The translations under genes were made by a program, and so were the position numbers. From the NCBI GenBank assembly GCA_024742485.1, contig JANSYK010000006.1, forward strand, positions 1-48,331: a DNA stretch of 48,331 nt, in the 5' to 3' direction. This DNA comes from Alphaproteobacteria bacterium (lineage in GTDB: Bacteria > Pseudomonadota > Alphaproteobacteria > Rhizobiales > Rhizobiaceae). Below are positions 28,826-48,171 of the stretch, one piece after another (the stretch's first letter is position 1; each line of letters opens with the position of its first letter). The notes under the pieces are model-generated. The model saw nothing but the letters and a program-made list of their open reading frames with translations. It did not search any database and was not told where the DNA came from.

Positions 28826-29479
28826 TCAGTCTGTATCGACATTTGCGCCACCGGCATCGGCGGCCATGAGCTCATCCGATTCCGGTACATATGTCCTTGC
28901 GGCAAGCGTCGTCAACTGTTCAAGCACCTCAGGGCGAAGCGAAACACGCGCGTGAACAGGCTGAACCGCCTGCGGTCTGAACTCCGCCTTTGAAAGGGTC
29001 ACCGTCTCGGGGGCCTGAAGCAATCTCGTTCCATGAACAAAGGAAATCTCGAGCCCATCCGCACTGACCACAGCATTGAAGGTCGGCGCAGAAACGGCAA
29101 TCCAATCATCGGTTGCCGAACTGACAGAGGCCAGGAACGCCAGCAGGTAAAGCGGACAAGCCAGTTCTTCGACAACAACGGTTCTTTGGAGATCGATTTG
29201 GCGGCCGCGATCAGACAGATAAGTGCCCATGATGATGGGACACATCGGCCCGAAATGGTGCTGAGAATCAAATTCGCCTTGTTTCGGTGTCATTTTTTCA
29301 TGACCGTGCATACCCACCGCCTGGAGATGGGCTGCAAAATCCGCTAGGTCGGTCACGCCGCGTTTTGCTGCCCAGCCGGCGGAAAATCCGGCCTCTTCAG
29401 CCAAACCCCAGGGGTAGCCCGCACCCCGCGCTGCCTTGAGGCAGAGCATTTCCAGTTCCTTGATAGAAAAATCCGACAT
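28826..29479 (-). CDS. DUF3726-like conserved protein
   Basis: A 217-aa protein I place in the DUF3726 family from memory, on the N-terminal pattern ELEMLCLKAARGAGYPWGLAEEAGF (about residues 8-32). The rest is soluble and mixed, with a His-rich stretch QHHFGPMCPIIMGTYLSDRG that could bind a metal or cofactor. There is no signal peptide or membrane segment. The ATG overlaps the stop of the upstream 562-aa gene by one base (TGATG), so the two are coupled and probably work together. It is the last gene of the ferredoxin-oxidoreductase operon. Function unknown. An electron-transfer or enzyme-assembly role is only an inference from the neighbours. Confidence 0.65.
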   Translation of the reverse strand: MSDFSIKELEMLCLKAARGAGYPWGLAEEAGFSAGWAAKRGVTDLADFAAHLQAVGMHGHEKMTPKQGEFDSQHHFGPMCPIIMGTYLSDRGRQIDLQRTVVVEELACPLYLLAFLASVSSATDDWIAVSAPTFNAVVSADGLEISFVHGTRLLQAPETVTLSKAEFRPQAVQPVHARVSLRPEVLEQLTTLAARTYVPESDELMAADAGGANVDTD

Positions 29480-31167
29480 CAGGCAACATCACCCTGTGCA
29501 TAGGTCCAGTCATCAGCCTCACAGTTTGCCAGGTCTTCCGGATAGGGAGCATGTTGGAACATCGTGATCCGTGTCCATCGATCGGATTTCGGATCAAAGC
29601 GGGTCGCCCCGAAGAATGACAGTTTGCAGCGCAGCATATCGAGCGGCAGAGCATCGGTATGAAGAAGATTGTCCCGAATCTCACAATACGGAAATGCATC
29701 CATCAATTGCGCCCGCCGAACCAGATGGCGATATTCGGAATGGTGCAGAAGAAATTCGGCAATCGGGGTCGTGCCCGGCCAAGCCTTCAGCGCCCGCGCC
29801 ATGCCCGCAATATCCCGTCCGATGGCGATTGGCATTTCAAGGTCGCCCAGGGGTGCCAATGTTGCACGTTTGCCGACTCTGGGTTCCAGCTTGTTCTGCG
29901 ACACGTACCAGTATTTTTCCTGACTGGCAGGATCGTCAAAATCGATATCCAGCGCCCAGCCATACGAATGTTGCACAATATCCTGCAGTGCATCCACGGT
30001 CATTGCGCCGTCGATGACAAAATGGGCGCGTTCGTCCACGCTCATCGTGTCAAGCAGGTCATCGACCAGATTGCCATAGGGCTCAATCACCAGGCTGACA
30101 ACAAGCTCCTGTGCCTCCAAACCCAGTTCGGCCTCGACCCATTCATACAACCGGTCCCATGGGTGGTCCTCACACAGCGCGCCTGTGTCAATGTGAATGT
30201 TCAGCTTTGCCAAATCGGCCTGTAACTGTTCAATCCGGCGCGCCTGACGCTGATCTGTCGTGTTCCAGTATTTGCAGCTCCTGGTGAAGCGATTGAGCAA
30301 TTGCCCGAACCGGGCGATCTCCCGATTGCCGGCTTTTTCAAGCGAGCGGACCCGTGCCAGGGCGGTTTCCCGGGCACTAACCCAATTGTTTATGAGTGCA
30401 GGATGGGCCACCAGGAACGGTGCCATCCCCAATCCGGTGGCATTGCCCACGCCGAACCGGCGGCGCAGGGACGGGTCCAGCCGCACTGCAGTCTTCTTCG
30501 CCCTGCGCTGCGCCAGATGTTCGACAATATCGATCGTGAAGGCCCTGATCAGATAGACGGACAGCATCTCCAGCTGAAACGGTTGAGATGCCTCAGGTCG
30601 GTCTGCGAGCTTGTCACGCGATGCGGCGCCAAACTTGCCTGATCCGTAAACTGCAGTTGTTCGCATGAGATAGCCGACTGCATCGATCTTCTCCCGGTCG
30701 GGTTGCTGTCCCGCCGCCAGGCTCGCCACCACATGCTCAAAAAGCCGTACCGAGCGATTGGCGCGGGATATCGAGAATTCGGAATCAGAAACCCGGCCCG
30801 CTTCCTGCCTGGGCACCTGGTGCGACAGGCGCTCAAGATCGTGTTCGTCCGGCACTCCATCGAATAGCGTGAAAGTGGCATCCCATTCGGTTGCGATCGA
30901 ACGGTCAGACCGTTTTGACGGATCCAGATCATGGGAAAAGCACACAAGGCTATAGGACCGAGACGGACCTCTGGCGGTGTATACGCCCACTCCGACGCCC
31001 TGGTCGTCCATGCGCCAGACCGGTCTCGAAAATGCCCAGTTTTCACGCTTCATTCGTCTCAACAGCGATCGCATGAAACTCAGGCGACTCTGATGGAACG
31101 ACCCCAAGCGCGCCAATCGCATGACGACATCCGGTGGTCGTAGCGGGACGGTGGTGCAGGTCGGCAT
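29479..31167 (-). CDS. Uncharacterised 562-aa protein in the kor operon
   Basis: I do not recognise this family. The protein is soluble, without a signal peptide or membrane helices. The N-terminus is basic (RLGSFHQSRLSFMRSLLRRMKREN). The most conserved-looking part is RRRFGVGNATGLGMAPFLVAHPALINNWVSARETALARV near the middle, followed by a helical, charged section (QARRIEQLQADLAKLNIHID) that may form a coiled coil. The C-terminus has YWYVSQNKLEPRVGKRA and a long, mixed domain. The start is the ATG at 31165-31167, with AGGA 6 bases upstream; the longer frame would overlap the AhpD-like gene. The neighbouring KorAB, ferredoxin and AhpD-like genes suggest a role linked to redox metabolism of the operon's substrate. 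Confidence 0.6.
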   Translation of the reverse strand: MPTCTTVPLRPPDVVMRLARLGSFHQSRLSFMRSLLRRMKRENWAFSRPVWRMDDQGVGVGVYTARGPSRSYSLVCFSHDLDPSKRSDRSIATEWDATFTLFDGVPDEHDLERLSHQVPRQEAGRVSDSEFSISRANRSVRLFEHVVASLAAGQQPDREKIDAVGYLMRTTAVYGSGKFGAASRDKLADRPEASQPFQLEMLSVYLIRAFTIDIVEHLAQRRAKKTAVRLDPSLRRRFGVGNATGLGMAPFLVAHPALINNWVSARETALARVRSLEKAGNREIARFGQLLNRFTRSCKYWNTTDQRQARRIEQLQADLAKLNIHIDTGALCEDHPWDRLYEWVEAELGLEAQELVVSLVIEPYGNLVDDLLDTMSVDERAHFVIDGAMTVDALQDIVQHSYGWALDIDFDDPASQEKYWYVSQNKLEPRVGKRATLAPLGDLEMPIAIGRDIAGMARALKAWPGTTPIAEFLLHHSEYRHLVRRAQLMDAFPYCEIRDNLLHTDALPLDMLRCKLSFFGATRFDPKSDRWTRITMFQHAPYPEDLANCEADDWTYAQGDVA

Positions 31168-31174
31168 ATCGATC

Positions 31175-31627
31175 CTATTCTGGAATTTCGCAATCGGCTT
31201 CACGGCCGAATGAAATGGCAAGCCTGTTCCAGGCATTCATGGACAAGATCACGAAGGTGAGATCGACAATCTCGGCGTCACTATAGTGTTTCTTCAGTTC
31301 CTCGAACAATGGATCGGGCGCACCCTGTGTACTGATCTCGGTGACAGCCTCGGCCCATGCAAATGCGGCTCTCTCCGCCTTTGTGAACAATGTGGATCTG
31401 CGCCAATGGGTCATTGCATCGATACGTTCGGCGGATTCACCGAGACCACCGGCTTGATTGCGGTGACGGTCGAAGCAATAGGAGCAACAGTTGATCGCAG
31501 AGACCTGTATCTCCAGCAGGCGGCGCAGATTTTGAGAAATGCAGCATTGGTCGCTGTAGCTGTTGAGACCGGCAAGGGCACCGACCATTTCAGGTGCCAC
31601 ATCGCGATATTCGATCCGCGGGGTCAT
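31175..31627 (-). CDS. Carboxymuconolactone decarboxylase / AhpD-like protein
   Basis: A 150-aa helical protein of the AhpD/CMD superfamily. The redox motif Cys-Ser-Tyr-Cys with a following His is present (INCCSYCFDRHRNQAGGLGE), as in alkylhydroperoxidase-type members with a CxxC pair. After that, AERAAFAWAEAVTEIS matches the helix common to the family. The ATG is 6 bases from the ferredoxin stop, consistent with one transcript. It may reduce a peroxide or act on a small cyclic acid, or protect the oxygen-sensitive FeS proteins encoded beside it. The last idea is inference. Confidence 0.78.
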   Translation of the reverse strand: MTPRIEYRDVAPEMVGALAGLNSYSDQCCISQNLRRLLEIQVSAINCCSYCFDRHRNQAGGLGESAERIDAMTHWRRSTLFTKAERAAFAWAEAVTEISTQGAPDPLFEELKKHYSDAEIVDLTFVILSMNAWNRLAISFGREADCEIPE

Positions 31628-31633
31628 GGCAAA

Positions 31634-31966
31634 TCACCCATCGCCCGGATTCCTCGACAACAATTCAAACTTGTTTTCGGTATCCTTCCACAAATGGGCA
31701 TCGGATGGCGGATCCTTTTGCTCGGTGATGACCGGCCACACTCCCGCCAGCTCGGCGTTCAGCTCTAGCCATTTTTCCAGCCCGGGTTCGGTGTCCGCCC
31801 GGATGGCATCAACCGGGCATTCCGGTTCGCACACACCACAGTCAATGCACTCATCCGGGTGAATAACGAGCATGTTCTCCCCCTCATAGAAGCAATCGAC
31901 CGGGCACACCGCAACGCAATCAGTGTGCTTGCATTTGATACAGCTCTCAACGACGACGAAAGTCAC
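31634..31966 (-). CDS. fdxA: FdxA-type 7Fe ferredoxin
   Basis: Ferredoxin of 110 aa with a [3Fe-4S] and a [4Fe-4S] cluster. Cys residues follow the FdxA pattern: [19 protein letters not shown] near the N-terminus and [17 protein letters not shown] at about residues 39-55. The long C-terminal tail (about 55 residues, ending in RNPGDG) is typical of the Azotobacter ferredoxin-I class. A GTG start is preceded by GGAG. It sits between korB and the AhpD-like gene and is the obvious electron acceptor of the KorAB enzyme. It could also exchange electrons with the divergent molybdenum hydroxylase, which has no FAD subunit. Confidence 0.9.
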
Positions 31967-32023
31967 TTGGTGGTTCTCCGATATGCAAATTGGGTTCGGG
32001 AGCGGTCGAGAGCGACAGGCGCT

Positions 32024-33031
32024 CTAGCCGCCAACTGTCCATGTTTCACCGGTTTCGAGCAGCTGGTTGATCTTGTCTGCCCTCGCAGCCACCGATACTG
32101 TGTCATCCGGCATCAGATCATTGTGGGTGGGGAGATCGATATCTCGAAGGACGCCCAAAACTTCCGGCATGCGTGGATGCTCCATGCCGGCCAGCATTTG
32201 AGCGATTGCGGACGTTTGTGAAGCCTCGTCGTGAACCAGCAGATCGCCTGCGCTCCGGCCATTGTCCAATTCAACAACCTCAAGGTCGGTGCCGACAAGA
32301 CGAATGCCCTTGTTTCGCTCCTTTCCGAAAACAAGCGGCTGTCCATGAACGAGCTCGACGGTGTGATCTTCCCTGACGGCGGCGTCCTTGGCGTGATCAA
32401 ATGCACCATCATTGAAAATGTGACAGTTCTGGTAGATCTCGACAAATGCGGCGCCGCGATGGGCCGCTGCACGCCGCAAGACGTCTCCAAGATGCCTCGC
32501 ATTGGTGTCAACCGAGCGGGCCACAAATGTGGCGTTGCTGGCAAGCGCAATCGACAGTGGATGGAGGGGCTCGTGGGCCGTCCCCCCTGGTGTTGAACTG
32601 GTCACCAGTCCCGGGGGCGTGGTTGGTGAGAATTGGCCCTTGGTCAGCCCGTATATGCGATTGTTGAAGAGCAGGATCTTGATGTCCACGTTTCGACGCA
32701 GCGCATGCAACAAGTGTGTGCATCCGATGCTGAGGGCATCGCCATCACCGGTGACAACCCAAACCTGCAGATCCGGTCGCATGCGTTTCAGTCCGGTGGC
32801 AATGGCCGGCGCACGACCGTGAATGCCGTGCATGCCATATGTCTCCAGGTAGTAGGGGAATCTGCTCGAGCAACCGATGCCGGATACGAAGGCAACATTC
32901 TCCGGCTTCACACCCAGTGTCGGCATGATCTTCTTCATCTGCGATAATATGGCGAAGTCACCACATCCGGGGCACCACCGCACCTCCTGATCGCTGGCAA
33001 AGTTCGGTTGGCTTTTTTCCACGACCGACAT
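32024..33031 (-). CDS. korB: 2-oxoacid:ferredoxin oxidoreductase, beta subunit (KorB-like)
   Basis: Thiamine-diphosphate-binding catalytic subunit, 335 aa. The [4Fe-4S] ligands look intact: WCPGCGD (about residues 19-25), Cys in GIGCSSRFP and a later Cys in YQNCHIFND. The TPP motif is TGDGDALSIG with the Asn pair in LLFNNRIYGLTKGQ. This fits the two-subunit KorAB-type enzymes that convert 2-oxoacids plus CoA into acyl-CoA, CO2 and reduced ferredoxin. The start is the ATG at 33029-33031; the alpha gene stops one base before it and its end provides GAGGAG. The substrate could be 2-oxoglutarate or another 2-oxoacid. Confidence 0.9.
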   Translation of the reverse strand: MSVVEKSQPNFASDQEVRWCPGCGDFAILSQMKKIMPTLGVKPENVAFVSGIGCSSRFPYYLETYGMHGIHGRAPAIATGLKRMRPDLQVWVVTGDGDALSIGCTHLLHALRRNVDIKILLFNNRIYGLTKGQFSPTTPPGLVTSSTPGGTAHEPLHPLSIALASNATFVARSVDTNARHLGDVLRRAAAHRGAAFVEIYQNCHIFNDGAFDHAKDAAVREDHTVELVHGQPLVFGKERNKGIRLVGTDLEVVELDNGRSAGDLLVHDEASQTSAIAQMLAGMEHPRMPEVLGVLRDIDLPTHNDLMPDDTVSVAARADKINQLLETGETWTVGG

Positions 33032-33032
33032 G

Positions 33033-34901
33033 CTAGTTCTTCTCCTCAAGGGACGTATCGATTTGAGCGGCTATGTCATCAATCCGGAAGGGTTGTCCGC
33101 GGACCTTGTTCAGCCCGGATGCGTCAACGAGATACTCCGCGCGCAGCAATTGCAGCAGTTGCCCGCTATTCAGTTCCGCGACGATGACCTGTTTGAAATC
33201 ACGCAAGAGATCGCCGAGATCCTTTGGAAAGGGATTGAGATGGCGCAAATGGATGTGAGACACGCTCTTGCCTTCGCCGCGCGCCCGCTTTACCGCCTCC
33301 CGGCATGTACCGCGCATCCCGCCCCAACTTACAATGAGCAGTTCTCCGCTACGCTCACCTTCCATCTCCAAAGATGTCATTAAATCTCTTGCATTTTTGA
33401 CCTTCTGCGCGCGGAGATTGACCATTGTTTCGTGATTTTGCGGATCATAGCTAATGGCACCCGATCCGTTTTGTTTTTCAATTCCGCCAATGCGATGCGT
33501 CAATCCCTCCGTGCCCGGCAGGGCCCAGGGGCGGGCGAGCCATTCATCCCGTTCATAGGGCATGAACGGCTCGCCGTGGGTCATCGCCTTGGGATGGTCG
33601 ATTGAAATGGGTTCAAGGGTGCGAATGTCGGGGTAGTTCCAGGGTTCGGCCCCATTGGCTGTGAAGGCATCCGATAAGACCATAACCGGCGTCATGAGTT
33701 TTGTGGCAATGCGCCAGGCTTCAATGACGGTCTCGAAGCAATCGGATGGACCACTCGCGGCCAGGACGGGCATCGGAGCTTCGCCGTTGCGCCCCATAAC
33801 CGCCTGGAAGAGATCGGCTTGCTCAACCTTGGTCGGCAATCCCGTGCTCGGGCCGCCGCGCTGTACATTGATAACCACCAGCGGCAGTTCAAGCATCACC
33901 GCATAGCCCAGGGCCTCGGTTTTCAACGCAATGCCGGGCCCGCTTGATCCGGTAACTCCCAGTGCCCCGCCAAAAGAAGCGCCAATGGCCGAACATATGG
34001 CGGCAATCTCGTCTTCGGCTTGAAAGGTCCTGACGCCACATTCTGAAAAACGGCTGAGCTTGTGCAAAATGTCGCTGGCGGGCGTGATGGGATAGGCGCT
34101 GTAGAAAAGCTCCTTGCCGCTGAGATACGCTGCCGTCACAAGACCAAACGCCAGCGCCTCGTTTCCGGTTACATTTCTGTATGTTCCGGGCTTTGGTTTG
34201 GCGGGCGGGACGACATAACTTCGTTCAAACGCTTCCGTTGTTTCTCCGAAATTCCAACCCGACGTGAGCGCCAACTTGTCCGCTTGCGCAACCTCCTCTG
34301 AAAATCTGGTATCGATAAATCGGATAGTCGCGTCCAGATCCCGGCCATAGAGCCAGTAGACGATGCCCATGGCAAAGAAGTTGCGGCACCGGGTCGCGAT
34401 CTTGTGGCCGACACCGGCCTCGGCAACCGCAGCTCTCGTTTGCGAGGTAATCGGCGCCTCAACCACTTGATACTCGCCGAGTGAGCCATCCTCAATCGGA
34501 TTGTTTTCGTACTTCGCCAGACGCAACCCCTTGCGATCGAACGCATCCACATCGACAATGATCGTTCCATGGGGCTTTACGGCATCCAGATTGACTTTCA
34601 GCGCCGCGGGGTTCATGGCCACAAGGACATCGACCTGGTCGCCGGGTGTCAGCACGTCGCTTGATGCGAAATGGACCTGAAAGCCACTGACTCCGGCCGG
34701 CGTCCCTTTGGGGGCCCTGATTTCGGCTGGAAAATCCGGGAATGTGGCAATATCATTGCCCATCAGCGCGGATGTAACCGCAACTTGTGACCCGGCAACC
34801 TGCATTCCATCACCTGAATCGCCGGCAAATCTCACCACGACCGAATGGGCATTTTGGGCACTGCCACGAACCACAGGCTCGACTTGTTGACACTCATTCA
34901 A
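33033..34901 (-). CDS. korA: 2-oxoacid:ferredoxin oxidoreductase, fused gamma-alpha subunit (KorA-like)
   Basis: A 622-aa fusion typical of KorA. Residues about 20-210 form the gamma domain (VVRFAGDSGDGMQVAGSQVA, then FPDFPAEIRAPKGTPAGVSGFQV). The alpha domain follows (GNEALAFGLVTAAYLSGKELFYSAYPITPASDILH, FQAEDEIAAI, GSSGPGIALKTEALGYAVMLELPLVVINVQRGGPSTGLPTK). A transketolase-like C-terminal domain ends the protein. The start is TTG with AGGAAAA upstream; no in-frame ATG lies near. First gene of the minus-strand operon, opening just after a palindromic operator. It uses CoA and ferredoxin in the cytoplasm. Confidence 0.9.
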   Translation of the reverse strand: MNECQQVEPVVRGSAQNAHSVVVRFAGDSGDGMQVAGSQVAVTSALMGNDIATFPDFPAEIRAPKGTPAGVSGFQVHFASSDVLTPGDQVDVLVAMNPAALKVNLDAVKPHGTIIVDVDAFDRKGLRLAKYENNPIEDGSLGEYQVVEAPITSQTRAAVAEAGVGHKIATRCRNFFAMGIVYWLYGRDLDATIRFIDTRFSEEVAQADKLALTSGWNFGETTEAFERSYVVPPAKPKPGTYRNVTGNEALAFGLVTAAYLSGKELFYSAYPITPASDILHKLSRFSECGVRTFQAEDEIAAICSAIGASFGGALGVTGSSGPGIALKTEALGYAVMLELPLVVINVQRGGPSTGLPTKVEQADLFQAVMGRNGEAPMPVLAASGPSDCFETVIEAWRIATKLMTPVMVLSDAFTANGAEPWNYPDIRTLEPISIDHPKAMTHGEPFMPYERDEWLARPWALPGTEGLTHRIGGIEKQNGSGAISYDPQNHETMVNLRAQKVKNARDLMTSLEMEGERSGELLIVSWGGMRGTCREAVKRARGEGKSVSHIHLRHLNPFPKDLGDLLRDFKQVIVAELNSGQLLQLLRAEYLVDASGLNKVRGQPFRIDDIAAQIDTSLEEKN

Positions 34902-34933
34902 TTGCTTTTCCTGTCCATTGGGGAAAATCGTTT

Positions 34934-34969
34934 GTAAGTAAGTTATTACTTATTTAATGTGCATGTCAA
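34934..34969 (-). promoter_or_regulatory. Promoter and palindromic operator of the kor operon
   Basis: On the minus strand TTGACA (34964-34969) is followed after about 15 bases by TAATAA (34943-34948). The -10 region lies inside the palindrome TAAGTAAGTTATTACTTA (34935-34952; arms TAAGTAA/TTACTTA). It starts 33 bases before the korA TTG. Binding by a repressor here would block RNA polymerase. The sequence matches the site upstream of the Mo-hydroxylase gene in mirror orientation. Confidence 0.65.
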
Positions 34970-35005
34970 GAGATCCATGGAGGCCACAGGGGATAAATTT
35001 CGGCA

Positions 35006-35042
35006 TTGACACGAATGTTGAATTAAGTAATAGCTTACTTAC
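35006..35042 (+). promoter_or_regulatory. Promoter and palindromic operator of the Mo-hydroxylase/TRAP operon
   Basis: TTGACA (35006-35011) is followed after 16 bases by TAATAG (35028-35033). The palindrome TAAGTAATAGCTTACTTA (35024-35041) covers the -10 box. Over 22 bases this site and the reverse complement of the kor site match at 20 positions. Centres of the two sites are 89 bases apart. The likely binder is the TetR protein encoded at 40934-41593. Confidence 0.65.
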
Positions 35043-35097
35043 TAAATGCGCTTTTGCAGCGCCATGCGACCAACAAACGCAGGAACGGAAGTGATAG

Positions 35098-37893
35098 ATG
35101 GCCGAAAGCATGACGTTGTCCGTAAACGGTGAACAATGCGATATTGATTCCGAAGACACCAGTCTACTGGACGCCTTGCGCGAGCAGTTGGACCTGACGG
35201 GCGCGAAGAAAGCGTGCGACAACGGCGAGTGCGGCAGTTGCATCGTCATGATGAACGGCAAGCCGACAAAATCCTGTCTGCTGCCGGCGTCACGAGCGGC
35301 CGGCAAGGACATTCTGACCATCGAAGGCATGGCCCCTGAAGCCGAAAACATACAGCCGGGAGATGACCTGTCGATTCTGCATCCCCTGCAGCAGGCCTTT
35401 CTTGAAAAAGGCGCAACACAGTGCGGATTTTGCATCCCGGGAATGATCATGAAGGCGCACACATTGTTGCGCAACAAGCCAAATCCCTCACGCGATGAAA
35501 TCGTCAAGGGCCTGTCAAAAAACCTGTGCCGCTGCACCGGATACACAAAGATAATCGAGGCGGTCGAATATGCCGCCGAGATGATCCGCGATGGATCAAA
35601 TTCACCAGGTTTTGCCAAACCCAACGGGCGGGTCGTTGGAGTCGATGTTGCTCGATTGGATAGCCCTGCGACCGTCAACGGTCAGGCAAAATATGCCGCC
35701 GATATGAAACTGCCCGGCATGCTGTTCGGCAAGCTGCTTCGTTCGGACGTTCATCATGCGAAAATCATTTCGATTGATACGAGCGCCGCGGAAGCGATGG
35801 ATGGTGTCGAATGTGTCATTACGGCAAAGGATATCCCCGGCACGGCATATCTGCCGAACTGCCAGCCACAGGTGTTTGTATTTCCAGAGGATCGAATCCG
35901 GTTCAAGGGCGAAGCTCTGGCTGGAGTAGCGGCACGATCGGAGACAATCGCACAAGCGGCACTGGACAGCATCAAGGTGACCTATCAGGAACTGCCTCAT
36001 GCCATTGAGGTCGCTGAGGCTGTTCGCCCGGACGCCGAGCCGCTTTACGATCACTCGCCGAGAGTGTCGGAACCCGAAGAGGTCAGCTGCGGCGATATCG
36101 ATGCAGGGTTTGCGGAGGCGGACGTCATCATCGAAAATGAATATTCCGTACCTGTGCGGGAGCACGCCGCCATGGAACCGGAATCCTGCCTGGCATACGA
36201 GGAAAACGGCAGACTGACTCTCAAGACCGGCCTCTACCATGCCTTCGTACAGGGCACGATGTCCATCGCCAATAATCTGGACATGAAAGAGGATGATATC
36301 CGAATCTCGTGTCCGGCGATGGGTGGCAATTTTGGAACGCGTGGCGATACGCTGATAGCCGTCGCGGCCGGCCTTATGGCCAGGAAAACAGGAAAGCCGG
36401 TGCGCATCGTGTTCACGCGTGCTGAATCCATTCTTGGGTCCTGCAAGGCGCCTTCGGTCAACATTCGGTACAAAACCGGCGCCAAAAAGGACGGCCGGAT
36501 CGTTGCAGTGGATGTTGAAGTCTTACATGGTGCCGGCGGGTGGGCGCCATATTTGATAGACAAGACAACCAGAGGATTTGAACTTTGCTACTATGAAACC
36601 CTTGGCGCTCTTCTTTCCCATGCAACCGGGCCGTATGAAATCGCCAATGTCCGCGCCCGCGCCTGGGATGTGTTGACCAACGGGCCTCGCTACGTGCCGC
36701 TTCGCGGAACGAATGCCAACTACATGCCCTTGGCCTATGAATCGCAAATTGATCTGATCGCTGAAAAGATCGGCATGAGTCCCCTGGACGTGCGCATGAA
36801 GAATGCCATCCGTCTCGGCGGCACGACCCATTTTGGACAACAGCTCACCGAACATGTCTCGATGGTTCAGGAACTCGAATTGATCCGGCCTCATTTTGAG
36901 GCGGCGAACCAGCGCCTTGCCCAGCGAAGGGCAGAGGCGGAATATCCATGGAGGCCGGGGCTGGGCATGGGCGCGGGATGGCGCAACATCGGCTATTTCA
37001 AGGCGGACATCACCGCCGGAGCGAAACTGGATGCCGATGGCAAGATCCACGTCATGGCCGGTACGGTGGAACAGGGCCAAGGCCCGACAACGCAATTTAC
37101 CCAGATCGGCGCCGATGCCATCGGCGTCGGCATGTCTGAAATGCGGATCACGCTCGGCGACACGGAAAAGGCGCCCTACCCCGTACCGACCTTCAGTTCA
37201 ATTTCCACCGTTGGCACAGGCAAGGCCGTGCAGGTCGCGGCGGAAACCCTGCGCGGCAAGCTGTTGGCGGCGGCCGCTGAATTGCTGCAAAGCGATCCGT
37301 CGAAGATCTCCACAAAGGGCGACCTGTTCTATCTGGCCGAAAGTCCCGATGTCTATGTTTCATTGAAACAACTGGCGGATCATTTCGAGGAGACCGGCCA
37401 GGACAGCCTGTCGGAATCAAAAATCGCATGGGCCGGCGAGGCCCCCACCATTCTTTACGGCTACAATACCGGTCTGATCGAGCTTGATGTGAACACCGAC
37501 ACCGGTGAGGTGCGGTTGCTCAATCACGTCAATGTCTGTGATCCGGGCACACGGATCAATCCGCAGGCAGTGGACGGACAGATAGATGGTGCCATTGCCT
37601 TTGGCATCGGGTTTGCCCTCAGCGAGCGGTTCCATCCCGATAATCCGGCCACGCTGGAGGGGTATGGACTACCATCGACACGGTCCATTCCGCCCGAGGT
37701 GACGAGGCTCTATGTGGATGAACCGCTGGAGCGCGGCCCATTTGGTGCAAAGAGCATGGCCGAACATCCGGGAATTTCTCCAATACCGGCCATCATCAAC
37801 GCCATTGCCAATGCAACGGGTGTTCGTGTCCGGGACATTCCGGCCACACCGGAACGAATAAAGGCGGCCCTTGAAGCCGCTTCAACAAACTGA
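35098..37893 (+). CDS. Molybdenum hydroxylase with fused [2Fe-2S] domain (aldehyde oxidoreductase/xanthine dehydrogenase family)
   Basis: A 931-aa enzyme, like Desulfovibrio-type aldehyde oxidoreductase: FeS and Mo parts in one chain and no FAD domain. Plant-type [2Fe-2S] ligands are Cys40, Cys45, Cys48 and Cys60. The second cluster is Cys109, Cys112, Cys144 and Cys146 (CGFC and CRC). The Mo-cofactor part has RLDSPATVNGQAKYAADM, the loop PAMGGNFGTRGD, a glutamine loop GTVEQGQGPTTQFTQIG and the C-terminal active-site region RGPFGAKSMAEHPG, where the Glu matches the catalytic residue of the family. It hydroxylates aldehydes or N-heteroaromatic carbons with water as oxygen donor. It is the first gene of the plus-strand arm, after a promoter/operator shared in design with the kor arm. 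Substrate unknown. Confidence 0.88.
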   Translation: MAESMTLSVNGEQCDIDSEDTSLLDALREQLDLTGAKKACDNGECGSCIVMMNGKPTKSCLLPASRAAGKDILTIEGMAPEAENIQPGDDLSILHPLQQAFLEKGATQCGFCIPGMIMKAHTLLRNKPNPSRDEIVKGLSKNLCRCTGYTKIIEAVEYAAEMIRDGSNSPGFAKPNGRVVGVDVARLDSPATVNGQAKYAADMKLPGMLFGKLLRSDVHHAKIISIDTSAAEAMDGVECVITAKDIPGTAYLPNCQPQVFVFPEDRIRFKGEALAGVAARSETIAQAALDSIKVTYQELPHAIEVAEAVRPDAEPLYDHSPRVSEPEEVSCGDIDAGFAEADVIIENEYSVPVREHAAMEPESCLAYEENGRLTLKTGLYHAFVQGTMSIANNLDMKEDDIRISCPAMGGNFGTRGDTLIAVAAGLMARKTGKPVRIVFTRAESILGSCKAPSVNIRYKTGAKKDGRIVAVDVEVLHGAGGWAPYLIDKTTRGFELCYYETLGALLSHATGPYEIANVRARAWDVLTNGPRYVPLRGTNANYMPLAYESQIDLIAEKIGMSPLDVRMKNAIRLGGTTHFGQQLTEHVSMVQELELIRPHFEAANQRLAQRRAEAEYPWRPGLGMGAGWRNIGYFKADITAGAKLDADGKIHVMAGTVEQGQGPTTQFTQIGADAIGVGMSEMRITLGDTEKAPYPVPTFSSISTVGTGKAVQVAAETLRGKLLAAAAELLQSDPSKISTKGDLFYLAESPDVYVSLKQLADHFEETGQDSLSESKIAWAGEAPTILYGYNTGLIELDVNTDTGEVRLLNHVNVCDPGTRINPQAVDGQIDGAIAFGIGFALSERFHPDNPATLEGYGLPSTRSIPPEVTRLYVDEPLERGPFGAKSMAEHPGISPIPAIINAIANATGVRVRDIPATPERIKAALEAASTN

Positions 37894-37939
37894 ACTCATT
37901 TTTAGACCTCGCAAATGAGGTAATTTCGGGAGGACCAGC

Positions 37940-38965
37940 ATGACTGACAAACCAAGAAAATCCAAGGGACTGACACGTCGAGGTGTTTTGGCCGGAACCG
38001 GGGCTGCGGTTGCCGGTGCGACATTCCTCGGCGGCAAGGCACCGCTCTACGCGGCAGGCAAACGCAAGTTGCGGTACATAGCCTTCATCAACCGAAACTC
38101 GGTTTGGGGCAAACCATACGATTTCCTTGCCGCCGAGGTGGAACGTCTTTCCAACGGTGAGCTGGAAATCGAATATGCCGGTGGCTCGGATGTCATCGGC
38201 GGCTTCGATGCACCGGAAGCCGTCGCCAACGGTGTGTTCGACATGAGCCACTCGGCCAACGCCTATTTTGCCGGTGCGGTTCCCGCTTCAATTGCGCTTG
38301 CGAGCGGAAATGCATCCGTCGACGAGCTGCGCGAATCCGGCGCCCTCGATGCCTATGCCGACATCGTCATGAAGCAACGCGGTGTCATGATGACCGGCGT
38401 TCCCCTGAGTGGCGTCGGTTATGTGTTTCAGGTCCGGGGTAATCCCGGTGAATTGTCCTATTTCAAGGGCCGGAAGATCAGATCAATTCCACTTTACGAT
38501 CCGATTTTGAGCGCACTGGGTGCCACACCGGTGACAACGTCGCCGGCGGAAGCCTATACGGCTATGGAACGCGGATTGGTTGACGGCATCGGTTGGCCTG
38601 ACATTGGCCTGCTTGATTTCAAATTCTTTGAACAAGCCAAATTCGTCATGATGCCGACCTTCTATCAGTTGAGAACGGCGACTTTGGTCAATCCGAATTC
38701 GTTCCAGGGTCTGCCGGAGGAGCTTCAGACAGTGTTCCTGGAAGCCAATCGCTCCGCCGATGCCATTGGCGAAAAATGGGCCCGGGACAAACGCGACGCG
38801 GAACATGCGGAAATGGAAAAAGCCGGCGTCGAGTTCGTGTCTCTGTCGGACAGCGAAGCAAATCAGTTTGTCGACCTGACAGAGGAAAAGCTGTGGGAGA
38901 ACATTGCCAAGTCTGCGCCTGACGATGCGGCCGTCTTGAGGCCGCTGTTTGACAAGACCAGCTAG
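37940..38965 (+). CDS. TRAP transporter solute-binding protein with Tat signal (DctP family)
   Basis: Periplasmic receptor, 341 aa. The N-terminus has a twin-arginine signal (LTRRGVLAGTGAAVAGATFLGG) with likely cleavage near residue 39. The DctP fold is seen in EVERLSNGELEIEY, the ligand region with NPGELSYFKGRKIRS (the family's anion-binding Arg) and TTSPAEAYTAMERGLVDGIGWP. The ribosome binding site GGGAGGA is strong. Tat export of DctP proteins often points to a large or cofactor-like fold, but here it may simply be the usual route for this subgroup. It lies 46 bases after the hydroxylase gene and delivers to the DctQ/DctM pair. Confidence 0.88.
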   Translation: MTDKPRKSKGLTRRGVLAGTGAAVAGATFLGGKAPLYAAGKRKLRYIAFINRNSVWGKPYDFLAAEVERLSNGELEIEYAGGSDVIGGFDAPEAVANGVFDMSHSANAYFAGAVPASIALASGNASVDELRESGALDAYADIVMKQRGVMMTGVPLSGVGYVFQVRGNPGELSYFKGRKIRSIPLYDPILSALGATPVTTSPAEAYTAMERGLVDGIGWPDIGLLDFKFFEQAKFVMMPTFYQLRTATLVNPNSFQGLPEELQTVFLEANRSADAIGEKWARDKRDAEHAEMEKAGVEFVSLSDSEANQFVDLTEEKLWENIAKSAPDDAAVLRPLFDKTS

Positions 38966-38988
38966 CAGGCGGGACATTGACATGATTG

Positions 38989-39019
38989 AGCGGCGGGCTC
39001 GTTCTGCGAGTCCGCCGCT
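38989..39019 (+). promoter_or_regulatory. Intercistronic hairpin after the DctP gene
   Basis: A 13-bp stem with one G-U pair (AGCGGCGGGCTCG against CGAGTCCGCCGCT) and a 5-base loop lies between the SBP stop and the dctQ start. There is no T run. It is likely a 3' stabiliser of the SBP message or a partial terminator. Confidence 0.6.
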
Positions 39020-39034
39020 TGCATAAATGGGAAC

Positions 39035-39613
39035 GTGCCGGTGAATTTTTCACGGATTTATTCTGAGTTTGAACGGATTGCGCTGTACCTGGCGATGTTC
39101 AGCGCCGCGCTGATCATGGCGATGAGCCTTTGGATCACTTATGACGTCATCACACGAACGTTTTTCGGATTCGCATCACCCTGGGCATTCGACCTGTCGG
39201 AATATTCTCTTGTCTGGATAACATTTCTGGGCGCTCCCTGGGTTTTGATGCAGGATCGCCATGTTCGCATTGAGCTGCTTGTTGATGTTTTGCCAAGACC
39301 TGTTCAACGGGTCCTCGGTGTCGGAGTCTGCATCGTTGGCGTGTTCATGTGCGCGATACTCGCATGGCGCACCGGTGTAGCTGCCATCGAATATTACGAA
39401 CGCAATGTCATGATGGCGCGAATTTGGCGCATTCCGCGAATCTGGCCCTACTTCGTCATTCCTTTGGGCAGTGGGCTTCTCTCCGTCGCATTCCTGTTGC
39501 GCCTGGCACTCTATTTGAGAGAGCAGGACCCAGAGGCGTCGCTGCGCAGCAAGGCTTCAGCCGGGCAGGAATCCGGCCTGATGCCGATAGGGAATGATAC
39601 CGATGGAGTATGA
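39035..39613 (+). CDS. TRAP transporter small permease subunit (DctQ family)
   Basis: Membrane protein of 192 aa with four hydrophobic helices (about residues 13-35, 47-66, 90-112 and 134-158). The DctQ pattern is visible in ITYDVITRTFFGFASPWAFDLSEYSLVWITFLGAPWVLMQDRHVRIELL, including the RT-F-G and DRHVR-type motifs. A GTG start has only a weak upstream site. It overlaps the DctM gene. It links DctM to the binding protein. Confidence 0.87.
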   Translation: MPVNFSRIYSEFERIALYLAMFSAALIMAMSLWITYDVITRTFFGFASPWAFDLSEYSLVWITFLGAPWVLMQDRHVRIELLVDVLPRPVQRVLGVGVCIVGVFMCAILAWRTGVAAIEYYERNVMMARIWRIPRIWPYFVIPLGSGLLSVAFLLRLALYLREQDPEASLRSKASAGQESGLMPIGNDTDGV

Positions 39614-40916
39614 GTGGGTCACGACGCTCGGATTCTTCTTTGGCCTGCTGATGCTGATGATGCTCAGCGGCATGCCCGTCGCCATCGGTTTCATCACGCT
39701 GAATATCGTTGGCCTTTACATCTATTTGGGCCCTGGGGCTTTGGCACTGCTCGCAACAAGCTCATTCACCTCAATCGGCCAATTTGCCCTCATCCCGATC
39801 CCGTTGTTCATTCTGATGGGTGAATTGCTGATGCGAACCGGCCTTGCCTCGAAAACCGTCGAGGCTGTGGATCACTGGATCGGACGTATTCCAGGTCGCC
39901 TGTCGCTTTCATCGGTGGGTGGCGGCACCCTGTTCGGTGCCTTGAGCGGGGCCAGCATGGCATCTGTCGCCATGCTGGGATCGACGCTTGTACCGGAAAT
40001 GACAAGGCGTGGTTACAAACCCGCCATGTCGGTCAGTTCGATTCTTGCCGGCGGAGGGCTCGCAGTCCTCATACCGCCAAGCGCACTGGGCGTTTTGCTC
40101 GGTGCGTTGGCCAAAGTCTCGATCGCCCAGTTGCTGGTTGCCGGAATTTTGCCTGGTGTTGTGCTGGCGGCAATGTACTTCATCTATTTTGCCGTGCGTG
40201 CGAAGATCCAGCCGGAACTGGCGCCGCCTTACGAAGCCGTCTCCACCTCATTGGCGCAAAAGCTCTATATTCTGTTGACCGTTGCGCCGCTGCTCAGTCT
40301 GATCGTGGTCGTCACCGGCTTTATTTTCCTTGGCATTGCAACACCATCGGAATCAGCGGCCATGGGCGTCGTTGCAACGATCATCCTGGCTGCATGCTAT
40401 GGGCGCCTGACCTGGGACGCGGTCGCAAAGTCATTGATGTCAGCGATGACAACGACGGCGATGATGCTGCTGGTGATTGTCGGTTCGACAGGATTCAGCC
40501 AACTGCTCGCGGCAACCGGTGCCACGTCCGGATTGGTGACGTCGGTCGCGAATCTGGGCCTGGGTCAGGTCATGACGGTCATCGTCATGCAGTTGATCGT
40601 GCTGGTGCTTGGCTGCTTCATTGACACCATATCAATCATGCTCGTTGCCATTCCGGTTTTCATGCCGATCGTGCAGGCACTCGGCATCCATGAGATCTGG
40701 TTTTGCATCCTGATTTTGGTTCAATTGGAGTTGGCGGGCATTACCCCGCCATTTGGGGTGTTGCTGTTCGTCATGAAAGGTGTTCAACAACACCTGAAAA
40801 TCTCGGAAATCTACAAGGCCGCAATTCCTATTGTTGCAATCCAGATTGCACTGGTTGCGCTTTTGATGATCTTCCCCGAAATTGTCACCACGTTGCCGGA
40901 TCTGGTGAAAAACTGA
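39603..40916 (+). CDS. TRAP transporter large permease subunit (DctM family)
   Basis: Transport-channel subunit, 437 aa, with about 11-12 membrane helices. DctM landmarks include MMLSGMPVAIGFITLN, IPLFILMGELLMRTG, GALSGASMASVAMLGSTLVPEMTRRGY, LIPPSALGVLLGALA and ITPPFGVLLFVMKGV. The start is the ATG at 39603, with AGGGA 9 bases upstream; an ATG at 39594 directly abuts that site. It overlaps the dctQ end by 11 bases. The ligand cannot be read from sequence; the hydroxylase in the same operon suggests an aldehyde, aromatic or heterocyclic carboxylate. Confidence 0.9.
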   Translation: MEYEWVTTLGFFFGLLMLMMLSGMPVAIGFITLNIVGLYIYLGPGALALLATSSFTSIGQFALIPIPLFILMGELLMRTGLASKTVEAVDHWIGRIPGRLSLSSVGGGTLFGALSGASMASVAMLGSTLVPEMTRRGYKPAMSVSSILAGGGLAVLIPPSALGVLLGALAKVSIAQLLVAGILPGVVLAAMYFIYFAVRAKIQPELAPPYEAVSTSLAQKLYILLTVAPLLSLIVVVTGFIFLGIATPSESAAMGVVATIILAACYGRLTWDAVAKSLMSAMTTTAMMLLVIVGSTGFSQLLAATGATSGLVTSVANLGLGQVMTVIVMQLIVLVLGCFIDTISIMLVAIPVFMPIVQALGIHEIWFCILILVQLELAGITPPFGVLLFVMKGVQQHLKISEIYKAAIPIVAIQIALVALLMIFPEIVTTLPDLVKN

Positions 40917-40933
40917 CTGCTGAGGAAAGCCAT

Positions 40934-41593
40934 ATGGCTATAGCCAAGTCAAAGGAGAAGTCGAGCCCGAGGGCGAAGCGGGATCCCGCCGCCACAAAGG
41001 AAAGAATATTGAAGGCAGGCTTGGCCGAATTTGGCTCAAAGGGCTATGGCGGAGCCAGCATGGAAACGGTGGTCAAACGCGCCAAATGCAACATCCGCAT
41101 GATCTACCACTACTTTGGCGGCAAACAGAATCTGTATGTGGCCTGCCTGGAGCGTGTTTATTCACACATCCGCGCAGAAGAGCAGAAGCTCAACCTCGAA
41201 CAGCTCCCACCGGTTAAGGCGCTGGAGCAACTTGTAGATTTCACATTTGACCACATGCAGAACAATCCGGATTTTGTGAAGATTGCTGTCGTGGAAAACA
41301 TGCAACGCGGCAAGTATATCGGGTCGGTGACACCGGTTGCGAGAGCCGCTGCCGGTCTCATTGATACGATCGAGACCATTTTGAAGCGCGGTGTCCGCCA
41401 GAAGGTCCTTCGATCGGGTATCGATGCTTTCCAGCTGTATGTCTCGATTCTGTCACTGAGCTATCTCCATCTGTCAAACCGGCACACATTGTCCATTACC
41501 TATGGTCAGGATCTTTCCGATCCCAAGTGGTTGGAAGCGCGGCGAAAACACGTGCGGAACATGATCTTGTCCTACGTGCGTGCACCGGGTTGA
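40934..41593 (+). CDS. TetR-family regulator, likely controller of the kor/Mo-hydroxylase regulon
   Basis: A 219-aa TetR protein. The HTH lies at about residues 20-66 (KERILKAGLAEFGSKGYGGASMETVVKRAKCNIRMIYHYFGGKQNLYVACLE). The C-terminal domain is helical and slightly longer than average, of the type seen in RutR/YcdC-like regulators. The ATG has GAGGAAA upstream and starts 17 bases after the DctM stop, so it is the last gene of the plus-strand operon. It is the only regulator in this block, and the two palindromes between korA and the hydroxylase gene are its probable sites. The longer frame starting inside dctM is an artefact. Confidence 0.87.
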   Translation: MAIAKSKEKSSPRAKRDPAATKERILKAGLAEFGSKGYGGASMETVVKRAKCNIRMIYHYFGGKQNLYVACLERVYSHIRAEEQKLNLEQLPPVKALEQLVDFTFDHMQNNPDFVKIAVVENMQRGKYIGSVTPVARAAAGLIDTIETILKRGVRQKVLRSGIDAFQLYVSILSLSYLHLSNRHTLSITYGQDLSDPKWLEARRKHVRNMILSYVRAPG

Positions 41594-41894: not shown

Positions 41895-41953
41895 CGCCGG
41901 AACACCGCCAGCAGATCGGCCATGATCAGCACAATGTTCGGGACTTTGATCAT
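41873..41953 (-). pseudogene. Sulfatase N-terminal fragment
   Basis: A 26-codon frame starts with ATG overlapping the stop of the GMC oxidoreductase gene (ATGA) and reads KVPNIVLIMADLL, the start typical of alkaline-phosphatase-superfamily sulfatases (NIxLIxxD). It then loses similarity and stops at 41873 where the aldehyde dehydrogenase remnant begins in another frame. It is best seen as the 5' end of a sulfatase gene that once followed the GMC gene and was cut away by a rearrangement. Confidence 0.6.
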
Positions 41954-43584: not shown

Positions 43585-44771
43585 CGGTTTTGCTCGCTCT
43601 TTGCCGTCAGGGTTCCGGGTGACTGCGCACCCAGGAAACCGGCAAATGTTTCATCTGAGATGCCGATCCCCGGTAACCGGCCGATATCGATCTTGCCGGC
43701 CATGACCGTCGGCGAAAACAGGTCTTCACGAAGAGAATTGGCATTGCTGTCGATTTCCAGAAGGCCATCGCCTCCGACAGCCGCCAGGAGATGCGCCGAG
43801 GCGGCGAGTCCGATTCCCCCACCAAGGAAATGGGGGCAGTAACGACGCCCGGAATGGAGGATAATACGGGCTACGGGAAACGTGCCGCTTACCCCGCCCC
43901 ACTTGCACAGGTCAGGCTGAAGGACACCGAAGATGCCGCTTGCCGCCGCATGCTCGAAATCGGCCCGGCCCATCATGTTTTCGCCCGCCGCCAGCGGAAT
44001 CGACGACGCCTGCGCCAGCGCCATCCAATCATTCGCTGAACTTGTCGCCATGATCGGTTCCTCCAGCCAGCGCAGTGGAAACTCGGCGAGCTTCGGCAGC
44101 ATTTCTGCTGTTTGCTCGACGGTCCAGGCCTGGTTGGCGTCGGTCATCAATTCATCGCCCTCGGCCAACCCGTCGGCGATGCCGGCAAGGTTCGCAAGGT
44201 CTGTTTCATCCCCGAACCCGATCTTGAGCTTGAAGGCGACATGCCCGTTGGCCCGGCAGCGCGCCACCGTATCCGAAGCACCAGCAGGATTGATACCGCT
44301 GGCGTAGGTTGCAATGATGGGGTTGGTGCCACCAAGGAGGCGGTAAAGAGGCGCGTCGGCGCGTTTCGCCACGAGATCCCACAATGCTCCGTCGATTCCG
44401 GCCAGGCATTGGGCAACCGGTCCTTTCTCGCCTGCCTGAATCGCCAGCCGCTCGAATCGATTGGTCAGTGCCGCAAAGCAATCGGCCGGGCTATCGAAGG
44501 TTCCATCCAGCAGCGCCGGAAAGATGGCTGTTTCCAGAAGCCGCCCGCGATGCTCTGCGCCGCAGGATGGGAAATTGCACCAGACTTCACCAAGGCCCGT
44601 TGCGCCGTCCGAGGCTTCAAGGCGGACAAAAACAGCCGGACGGTCGAACATGGTGCCGAACGATGTACGCACCGGTGTCTCGCACGGCGCGCGCAGAACG
44701 AACATCTCGGCCCGCGCGATGTTGATGGACAGATCAGCCTGAACAAATTCCGGAGCCAGCCACTCATGCAT
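43581..44771 (-). CDS. Enolase-superfamily enzyme (mandelate racemase/muconate lactonizing group)
   Basis: A Mg-dependent racemase, dehydratase or lactonizing enzyme. Landmarks in the 396-aa protein are the acid/base motif FKLKIG (about residues 180-185), metal ligands in TDANQAW, WLEEP and AAGENMM, and PHFLGGGIGLAASAHLLAAVGG with the His (about residue 314) typical of mandelate-racemase-type catalysis. The start chosen is the ATG at 44769-44771, which overlaps the sulfatase-pseudogene stop by 8 bases; a longer frame reaches further into that pseudogene. Substrates in this group are usually sugar acids or aryl/alkyl hydroxy-acids. Confidence 0.85.
   Translation of the reverse strand: MHEWLAPEFVQADLSINIARAEMFVLRAPCETPVRTSFGTMFDRPAVFVRLEASDGATGLGEVWCNFPSCGAEHRGRLLETAIFPALLDGTFDSPADCFAALTNRFERLAIQAGEKGPVAQCLAGIDGALWDLVAKRADAPLYRLLGGTNPIIATYASGINPAGASDTVARCRANGHVAFKLKIGFGDETDLANLAGIADGLAEGDELMTDANQAWTVEQTAEMLPKLAEFPLRWLEEPIMATSSANDWMALAQASSIPLAAGENMMGRADFEHAAASGIFGVLQPDLCKWGGVSGTFPVARIILHSGRRYCPHFLGGGIGLAASAHLLAAVGGDGLLEIDSNANSLREDLFSPTVMAGKIDIGRLPGIGISDETFAGFLGAQSPGTLTAKSEQNR

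Positions 44772-48093: not shown

Positions 48094-48171
<78 letters not shown>

Follow-up and report, generated by a model that had tools for sequence, protein, structure and literature searches.

Do the two divergent gene arms at positions 28826..41593 of the window (the whole 48,331-nucleotide stretch of DNA that was analysed) form one catabolic system, and what compound would such a system consume? An ORF check of the window confirmed eleven ORFs in two divergent arms, and ten of the eleven proteins scored above the Pfam gathering score (DUF3726, CMD/AhpD, ferredoxin, KorB, fused KorA, [2Fe-2S]+Moco hydroxylase, DctP, DctQ, DctM and TetR), so the gene contents given for both arms in the initial annotation stand. 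The minus strand encodes a 217-aa DUF3726 protein (28826..29479; Pfam DUF3726, 43 bits against a gathering score of 22.1), modelled as a shortened MDH2/LDH2 fold; HP562, a 562-aa protein of an orphan family (29479..31167; 562 aa from the ATG at 31167, in a frame open to 31236); an AhpD/carboxymuconolactone-decarboxylase-like protein of 150 aa (31175..31627; PF02627 48.1 bits, TIGR00778 29.2 bits); an FdxA-type ferredoxin of 110 aa with a GTG start (31634..31966; NCBIfam NF045490 162.3 bits, cut-off 135); and the two subunits of a 2-oxoacid:ferredoxin oxidoreductase, the TPP/[4Fe-4S] subunit KorB (32024..33031, frame open to 33049; PF02775 and TIGR02177) and the fused gamma-alpha subunit KorA (33033..34901; 622 aa, TTG start). 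The plus strand encodes a single-chain [2Fe-2S]/molybdopterin hydroxylase of the xanthine oxidase family (35098..37893; 931 aa; Fer2, Fer2_2, Ald_Xan_dh_C and MoCoBD_1/2, without a FAD domain); the TRAP solute-binding protein DctP, whose leader looks twin-arginine-like by eye (37940..38965; PF03480, NF037995); the small permease DctQ (39035..39613; GTG start; PF04290 101.6 bits) and the large permease DctM (39594..40916; PF06808 254.5 bits); and a 219-aa TetR-family regulator (40934..41593, frame open from 40703; TetR_N 44.8 bits, TetR_C_29 132.1 bits). From DUF3726 to KorA, successive genes are spaced by -1, +7, +6, +57 and +1 nt, where +7 uses the HP562 start at 31167 (-62 if the whole open frame is read) and +1 uses the KorB ATG at 33031 (-17 for the open frame); from the Mo hydroxylase to TetR (start 40934) the values are +46, +69, -20 and +17 nt. 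The genes within each arm are tightly spaced or overlapping, as first described (-62/-1 to +57 in the minus arm, -20 to +69 in the plus arm).

Operators and distribution of the block

A pattern search located two candidate operators, without assigned strand, in the 196-bp gap between the arms (34935..34952, TAAGTAAgttaTTACTTA; 35024..35041, TAAGTAAtagcTTACTTA). Both are mirror images of the form TAAGTAA-N4-TTACTTA, with perfect 7-bp arms and differing 4-nt spacers, and no site of this form arose in 20,000 first-order Markov shuffles of the gap. Among the assemblies of the five genomes with Mo-hydroxylase blocks, the exact operator occurs at 2, 2, 2, 2 and 1 sites, all inside the inter-arm gap; this genome search, made with the exact pattern only, found none outside the gap, and a reversed control pattern had no occurrence in the same assemblies. 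The pair is kept in four genomes and a single operator is present in HTCC2150, while TetR relatives (50-68%) are found in three other blocks. The mirror-image operators attributed to both arms are thereby confirmed as two perfect palindromes between the arms that are conserved among block genomes, and the exact pattern has the character of a TetR-regulon operator, a conserved palindrome restricted to its regulon. Because the exact operator is absent elsewhere in the five assemblies, co-regulation of both arms as one regulon is strongly supported at the sequence level, and the block is probably switched by a single TetR repressor through the paired sites.

The Mo-hydroxylase/TRAP set was found in five genomes: the source genome, G487 (Hyphomicrobiales MAG MH2_Bin52), G361, G088 (EVH02) and HTCC2150. 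In four of the five (not HTCC2150) it is joined to KorAB-ferredoxin, and the source genome, G487 and G361 share the order TetR-DctMQP-MoHyd / KorA-KorB-Fdx-...-HP562-DUF3726. The order is partly visible in G088, where the block is split over two contigs that end within it and TetR, DctQ and DctM were not seen. HTCC2150 has its one operator between TetR-ALDH-M19 and MoHyd-DctPQM-AhpD-HP562-DUF3726, with no KorA match genome-wide and none to ferredoxin within the 20-kb locus; this layout ties the Mo enzyme to an ALDH/M19/HP562 core, and the lack of KorA makes the 2-oxoacid step optional. AhpD was found in three of the five blocks and not in the other two. An ALDH lies inside the block in G487 and HTCC2150 and was not found in the other three; M19 was not found in four of the five blocks, and an M19 gene exists somewhere in all five genomes. 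Four of the five (the source genome, G361, G487 and HTCC2150) carry HP562 at a second locus, whose M19 and ALDH could therefore serve a separate pathway. The best named families for the ALDHs of the G487 block, the HTCC2150 block and the second cluster of the source genome are 2,5-dioxovalerate dehydrogenase and alpha-ketoglutaric semialdehyde dehydrogenase (456-478 bits, below the cut-offs of 750 and 770).

Relatives of the Mo hydroxylase at E<=1e-150 were found in 2 of 385 class genomes (the source genome and G088), 1 of 397 order genomes (the source genome) and 2 of 385 genomes in the sample around HTCC2150 (HTCC2150 and G979, the latter identical in DNA to G088 over the 1 kb compared). The block is rare among alphaproteobacteria, on figures that are rough because the genome samples are partial: G361, from the same order, is not among the matches of the 397-genome sample. 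All five Mo-hydroxylase copies found sit in such blocks, two of them having been reached through HP562, and the gene set recurs in several alphaproteobacteria that are distant from one another. The expectation that the neighbourhoods of KorA and the 562-aa protein would hold the same genes together is borne out in part: the arms stay together in four of the five Mo-hydroxylase genomes, which, with the exact operator confined to the gap, upholds the arms as one unit, but HTCC2150 has no KorA match and HP562 is common elsewhere.

Redox enzymes of the two arms

KorA scores 631.7 bits against TIGR03710, above the cut-off of 482.75, as a fused POR gamma and TPP alpha protein, and aligns with 6n2n_A; KorB scores 242.6 bits against TIGR02177 (PorB/KorB; cut-off 261.9). 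The solved structure nearest to KorAB is 6n2n, which we take to be a 2-oxoglutarate enzyme, and the KorB cysteines align with Cys-bearing stretches of 6n2n_B (WCPGCG, GIGCSS and a C near 212). Among 2-oxoglutarate/2-oxoacid:ferredoxin oxidoreductases (M. tuberculosis KorAB; 6n2n), the block enzyme is matched in its fused gamma-alpha KorA and, for 6n2n_B, in the Cys-bearing stretches of KorB; it differs in that a TetR-type operator links its genes with those of a transporter and a Mo enzyme. Ferredoxin-dependent 2-oxoacid oxidation had been called unusual, as a dedicated accessory step, in organisms of this kind, a view that does not hold: of 289 class genomes sampled, 94 have KorA-type enzymes that exceed the family cut-off, and the source genome encodes three. 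The M. tuberculosis KOR is described as the enzyme of an aerobe (PMC2773412). A literature search for KOR combined with TRAP found no paper describing such a cluster in titles and the starts of abstracts.

The Mo hydroxylase aligns over its whole length (residues 7-927) to 1sij_A (E 3.9e-110) with identical domain order; 1sij is the single-chain molybdopterin aldehyde oxidoreductase (MOP) of Desulfovibrio gigas. It fits the single-chain MOP type, with [2Fe-2S] and Moco domains on one chain and the FAD domain absent, and FAD-less single-chain Mo hydroxylases are an established type. A difference lies in the active-site region, where the loop reads RGTNANY, kept in all four aligned blocks, against RGYGAPQ in 1sij. 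The initial annotation had reasoned from the missing FAD partner that the encoded ferredoxin may serve the enzyme. The single-chain architecture, the at least two further long single-chain homologues in the source genome and the retention of the enzyme in HTCC2150 without KorA or ferredoxin matches, in the scopes given above, all speak against that argument. Searching a plasmid collection gave 1294 records matching the Mo hydroxylase, 347 matching DctP and 63 matching KorA, all at <60% identity.

HP562 and DUF3726 beyond the block

No Pfam or NCBIfam family matched HP562 at E<=0.001 (Pfam at E<=1 gave chance-like matches only), and a profile search of the PDB gave no match. Fold comparison, which also weighed a GNAT acetyltransferase with its acetyl-CoA motif, gave no clear relative. 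Members of the family turned up in 39 of the 289 class genomes sampled, the source genome included. HP562 and DUF3726 are not block-specific: both are part of a cluster common in alphaproteobacteria and holding LysR, ALDH, an M19 dipeptidase, betaine-type transporters (BCCT or ProU) and Ldh, and most HP562-DUF3726 loci are without KorAB or a Mo hydroxylase. The 562-aa protein is thus unrecognised, as first reported, and does not mark an undescribed system. Of the 66 long non-block HP562 loci, 26 have BCCT or ProU-type transporters nearby and three have sarcosine-oxidase-type genes within 10 kb, in counts that omit the short loci L056-L075, include some loci twice (L006 = L117) and under-detect DUF3726 by its threshold. 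One of the three, in G161, also has an ectoine-hydrolase-like gene; with so few sarcosine-oxidase-type neighbours, other N-compounds are therefore possible.

We suspect that the widespread LysR/ALDH/M19/HP562/DUF3726 cluster is a homarine-type (N-methyl-pyridine carboxylate) operon that may degrade homarine, a marine compound, and it may be the homarine operon reportedly described by Ferrer-Gonzalez et al. in 2026. Literature on homarine catabolism, trigonelline/molybdopterin, picolinate and dipeptidase/ALDH/BCCT gave no description of an HP562-DUF3726 cluster in titles and the starts of abstracts, nor did a search find any paper containing the term DUF3726. A homarine pathway involving Mgd is referred to as published (PMC13390433). 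The block shares HP562 and DUF3726 with these clusters, along with ALDH and M19 in HTCC2150 and ALDH in G487; it differs in having TetR for LysR and TRAP for BCCT/ProU, in its added Mo hydroxylase and KorAB-Fdx, and in being without Ldh.

In overall fold the DUF3726 model corresponds to MDH2/LDH2, and the protein is modelled as that type-2 malate/lactate dehydrogenase fold (the kind of YiaK, AllD and delta1-piperideine-2-carboxylate reductase) minus a middle part and the catalytic His. About 150 target residues remain unaligned. The Ser-His-Gly motif is catalytic in MDH2/LDH2 dehydrogenases. Ldh proteins retain it (S47 H48 G49), whereas the DUF3726 profile match ends ahead of it and no His is invariant, or nearly so, across 31 aligned DUF3726 sequences. 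In the divergent branch, the gene that follows HP562 in S. meliloti and in Alloyangia was considered as DUF3726 by place and size and rejected, having no Pfam DUF3726 match at E<=0.01; the corresponding L135 gene has none either, and those of L113, L099 and L136 match. HP562 was aligned in 32 rows, leaving out L046 and L054 (internal stop in the matched stretch). In a quick tree with SH-aLRT support only, from which exact duplicates and copies with <500 matched residues (such as the partial G088 copy) were left out, the block copy from G361 falls together with two ALDH/M19-cluster copies (99), apart from the other block copies; the HP562-DUF3726 pair therefore seems to have been exchanged between gene contexts.

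Proposed pathway and alternatives

The best reading is that the block is an altered regulatory and enzymatic form of an N-heterocycle/N-methyl-carboxylate pathway. TetR would bind both operators until substrate or an intermediate releases it, the TRAP transporter would bring in the carboxylate, and the single-chain Mo/[2Fe-2S] enzyme would hydroxylate it, probably at an N-adjacent ring carbon or an aldehyde. HP562-DUF3726 may then carry out a ring- or C-N-opening step, the same as in the LysR/ALDH/M19-dipeptidase clusters; a 2,5-dioxovalerate-dehydrogenase-related ALDH (part of the block in two genomes; in the source genome, part of the other HP562 cluster) together with the M19 amidohydrolase would then finish the route to a 2-oxoglutarate-level C5 acid, and KorAB with FdxA would oxidise the resulting 2-oxoacid to acyl-CoA and reduced ferredoxin. 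One TetR-repressed regulon following this whole route has, in our judgement, somewhat less than an even chance. That a single substrate passes through uptake, hydroxylation and oxidative decarboxylation is plausible; judging from neighbouring genes, a pyridine-2-carboxylate-like N-heterocyclic acid, related to picolinate or homarine, is the likeliest class, although still less probable than not.

KorAB might instead supply electrons, oxidising ordinary 2-oxoglutarate to charge FdxA so that reduced ferredoxin drives either a ring reduction or the Mo enzyme in the reductive direction; in Thauera aromatica, KorAB and ferredoxin feed 4-hydroxybenzoyl-CoA reductase. The genes for KorAB and Fdx do diverge from that of the Mo enzyme, with operators in common, and the Mo enzyme scores 403.1 bits against the alpha subunit of that reductase (cut-off 994.55). 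Its score is better against the molybdopterin aldehyde oxidoreductase equivalog NF045668 (519.6 bits, below the cut-off of 1100), however, a Pfam scan of block proteins found no FAD-binding subunit carrying an extra cluster, and HTCC2150 retains the enzyme in a genome without a KorA match, all of which makes electron supply rather unlikely. We also doubt that an aromatic or heteroaromatic 2-oxo acid or aldehyde is imported and decarboxylated by KorAB directly to aryl-CoA, with the Mo enzyme oxidising a side product. The resemblance of the Mo enzyme to aldehyde oxidoreductase would suit this, as would the nearest solved relative of DctP, 4mnc_A (4mnc/4mni, E 3.8e-33), which we take to be Polaromonas Bpro_4736 with benzoylformate; yet KorA is weak against phenylglyoxylate dehydrogenase PadG (51.3 bits, against 631.7 for TIGR03710), and HP562-DUF3726, mostly found without KorAB or MoHyd, would be left unexplained.

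The apparent swapping of HP562 between contexts and the entire ALDH/M19/HP562/DUF3726 core in the HTCC2150 block would agree with the same substrate as in ordinary HP562 clusters, possibly homarine, served by another transporter, regulator and Mo-enzyme front end. This too is improbable, as the second HP562 locus in the source genome, G361, G487 and HTCC2150 would be redundant and TRAP in place of BCCT/ProU suggests a different ligand. Most doubtful is the idea that the Mo-hydroxylase/TRAP genes and the KorAB genes are operons of unrelated function with a repressor in common by chance: HTCC2150 does have the former without KorAB, but its HP562-DUF3726 lies on the Mo arm, operator pairs are retained in four genomes, and, in a protein search of the source genome and four others, KorA copies at 72-78% are confined to blocks, the remaining copies reaching <=52% (as against <60% for the 63 plasmid matches).

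We consider it an unlikely idea that HP562-DUF3726 is a new kind of enzyme, in which an orphan-fold catalytic subunit and a dehydrogenase-fold partner lacking the NAD domain and catalytic histidine would open N-heterocyclic rings without recognisable flavin, iron or oxygenase; the block would be its Mo-hydroxylase/ferredoxin-linked form, with a substrate never yet assigned. The locus places a ferredoxin-dependent 2-oxoacid oxidase behind a TetR-type operator alongside a transporter, and it connects the orphan HP562 family with a regulon whose defined operator, solute-binding protein and Mo enzyme are all assayable. Knowing which ligand DctP binds would offer a direct way into the role of HP562-DUF3726 in marine and soil bacteria.

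Gene content and inter-arm operators

The block comprises two divergent arms whose genes, as listed in the initial annotation, are present in the ORF listing and, with one exception, in the Pfam/NCBIfam matches. The minus arm (28826-34901, minus strand) encodes DUF3726, HP562 (a 562-aa protein without a Pfam or NCBIfam family), an AhpD/CMD-like protein, an FdxA-type ferredoxin, KorB, and a fused KorA, and the plus arm (35098-41593, plus strand) encodes a single-chain [2Fe-2S]/Mo hydroxylase, DctP, DctQ, DctM, and TetR. The HP562 open frame has 585 codons, and the 562-aa length is correct provided that the start is the ATG at 31167. This genome belongs to the Hyphomicrobiales, the order to which G445 also belongs; the G445 contig is identical to one from a Hyphomicrobiales MAG. 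Just downstream of TetR lies a GMC oxidoreductase and enolase-superfamily (MR/MLE) pair (41950-44822, minus strand). About 4 kb from the block, a plus-strand group (19524-25042) encodes a PLP-dependent enzyme, an ABC transporter (binding protein at 20688-21653, ATPase, and permease) whose substrate class has, by eye, a glycine-betaine/choline look, and an alpha/beta hydrolase. A short frame resembling a transposase fragment by eye (47474-47863, plus strand) is found near a tRNA-Met gene (48095-48171).

The proposal that both arms share mirror-image operators was borne out, as the 196-bp gap between them contains two copies of TAAGTAA-N4-TTACTTA (34935-34952 and 35024-35041), both with perfect arms and unlike spacers. 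Three other genomes also have two copies of the motif in the corresponding gap, namely G487 (Hyphomicrobiales MAG MH2_Bin52; locus L004), G361 (L116), and G088 (an EVH02 MAG; L120, of which L050 is the reverse complement), and HTCC2150 (L043) has one copy, between TetR and the Mo hydroxylase. Exact-match searches of the assemblies of these five block genomes found the pattern nowhere outside the gap, a reversed control pattern had zero occurrences in the same assemblies, and no site arose in 20,000 Markov shuffles of the gap. The strongest result of this analysis is this dedicated operator, which would most simply belong to the linked TetR. The catabolic block is real and very probably both co-regulated and mobile.

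Distribution of the block

The expectation that the arms stay together held for this genome, G487, G361, and G088, where the KorA arm is joined to the Mo-hydroxylase arm, but not for HTCC2150, where KorAB-ferredoxin was not found in the locus and KorA had no match in the genome at E<=1e-3. The G487 block is complete, with KorA, KorB, ferredoxin, AhpD, Mo hydroxylase, TRAP genes, and TetR at 63-90% identity, HP562 at 71%, and DUF3726 (cut by the contig end) at 42%; an ALDH gene lies between AhpD and HP562. G361, which shares a family with this genome, has a block complete except for AhpD, with HP562 at just 59% and DUF3726 at 28% identity. One 4.5-kb contig of G088 holds a partial HP562, ferredoxin, KorB, KorA, and the Mo hydroxylase start, and another holds the remainder of that gene and the DctP start. 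The single HTCC2150 operator is flanked by TetR-ALDH-M19 (membrane dipeptidase) on one side and Mo hydroxylase-DctPQM-AhpD-HP562-DUF3726 on the other, with AhpD at 34% identity.

In overlapping and partial genome samples, the Mo hydroxylase was matched at E<=1e-150 in 2 of 385 class genomes (this genome and G088), 1 of 397 order genomes (this genome; the same-order G361 is not among the matches), and 2 of 385 genomes in an HTCC2150-centred sample (HTCC2150 and G979). The G979 match has the same contig, coordinates, and score as that of G088, with identical DNA across the 1 kb compared. The block looks rare and patchy in distribution, which suggests horizontal transfer.

A KorA-type enzyme had been considered unusual in such organisms, but 94 of 289 sampled class genomes have one that passes the family cut-off, and this genome has three. 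The FAD-less Mo hydroxylase had been read as a possible sign of ferredoxin use; however, single-chain architecture is already known, and this genome has at least two further long single-chain homologues. Nor is the encoded ferredoxin required for retention of the Mo enzyme, which HTCC2150 keeps with no KorA match in its genome and no ferredoxin match in its locus.

HP562 and DUF3726 outside the block

HP562 had been taken to mark an undescribed block, but HP562 and DUF3726 are widespread in a LysR/ALDH/M19 context and are not block-specific. HP562 relatives were found at 52 loci in the genome-contig collection and in 168 plasmid records. Counting this genome in each case, they are present in 39 of 289 genomes of the class and in 36 of 201 relatives. 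The commonest context is LysR - ALDH - M19 (by Pfam match) - (BCCT) - HP562 - DUF3726 - (Ldh, a type-2 malate/lactate dehydrogenase). Among HP562 loci without a close Mo hydroxylase or KorA, some of them entered twice, M19 lies within 10 kb in 78 of 97 and ALDH in 58 of 97 (among the 66 loci with 18 kb or more of sequence, 56 and 42, respectively). M19 is present in all five block genomes. This genome, G361, G487, and HTCC2150 each carry a second HP562 locus. In this genome it is an ordinary cluster on contig 120 (L080, G000:C120:168000-187999) that comprises LysR, ALDH (74%), M19 (75%), DUF3726, and Ldh and adjoins a separate two-part Mo hydroxylase. A divergent branch at about 30% identity (Alloyangia and S. 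meliloti 2011; L111, which is S. meliloti pSymB 384151-411809, and L112) retains M19 and an ABC importer beside HP562, with a similar-size gene between HP562 and M19 that has no Pfam DUF3726 match.

In Mesorhizobium sp. 131-2-1, a single annotated DUF3726 gene (L078:14989-17433) covers both HP562 and DUF3726, and therefore the two probably act together. From the window gene (28826-29479) and aligned relatives, the DUF3726 family appears to have an MDH2/LDH2 fold minus a middle part and the catalytic His. In a tree of 106 HP562 rows (quick method, no bootstrap, partial G088 copy left out), the proteins of the window, G487, HTCC2150, and the M19-linked MAG OFTM207 fall into a single group (97 SH-aLRT), and the G361 block protein clusters with ordinary-cluster copies L087 and L121 (99 SH-aLRT). 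Given the latter grouping, the HP562-DUF3726 pair has probably been swapped between contexts, and this speaks for a common chemistry in the two settings.

Potential substrates and pathway

ALDHs encoded in the G487 and HTCC2150 blocks, in the second cluster of this genome, and in TM1040 match 2,5-dioxovalerate and alpha-ketoglutaric semialdehyde dehydrogenases best among named families, at scores well below the cut-offs. Of the 66 long non-block HP562 loci, 26 have betaine-type carriers alongside and 3 have sarcosine-oxidase-type genes no more than 10 kb away. TM1040, outside the 66, has an operon of the latter type whose end is about 6 kb upstream of HP562, and in L119 an 807-aa FAD/GcvT-type gene lies near HP562. 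An ectoine-hydrolase-like gene beside HP562 in G161 (L099) counts against a single reading. In G161, a small genome of 1.6 Mb, that gene and a sarcosine-oxidase-type operon directly adjoin HP562, DUF3726, and M19-like genes.

N-methylglutamate dehydrogenase (Mgd) is a relative of sarcosine-oxidase-type enzymes. The homarine operon, which reportedly consists of five genes plus a regulator and is found in Rhodobacterales, SAR11, and SAR116, would fit the HP562-DUF3726 cluster. A role for Mgd in homarine catabolism is reported in PMC13390433. The ring carbons and carboxyl of a picolinate-type compound, with C6 lost, would give a C5 product at the 2-oxoglutarate level, for which KorAB would be the right enzyme family. 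The block is a variant, itself new, on a widespread pathway core that has perhaps been recently published.
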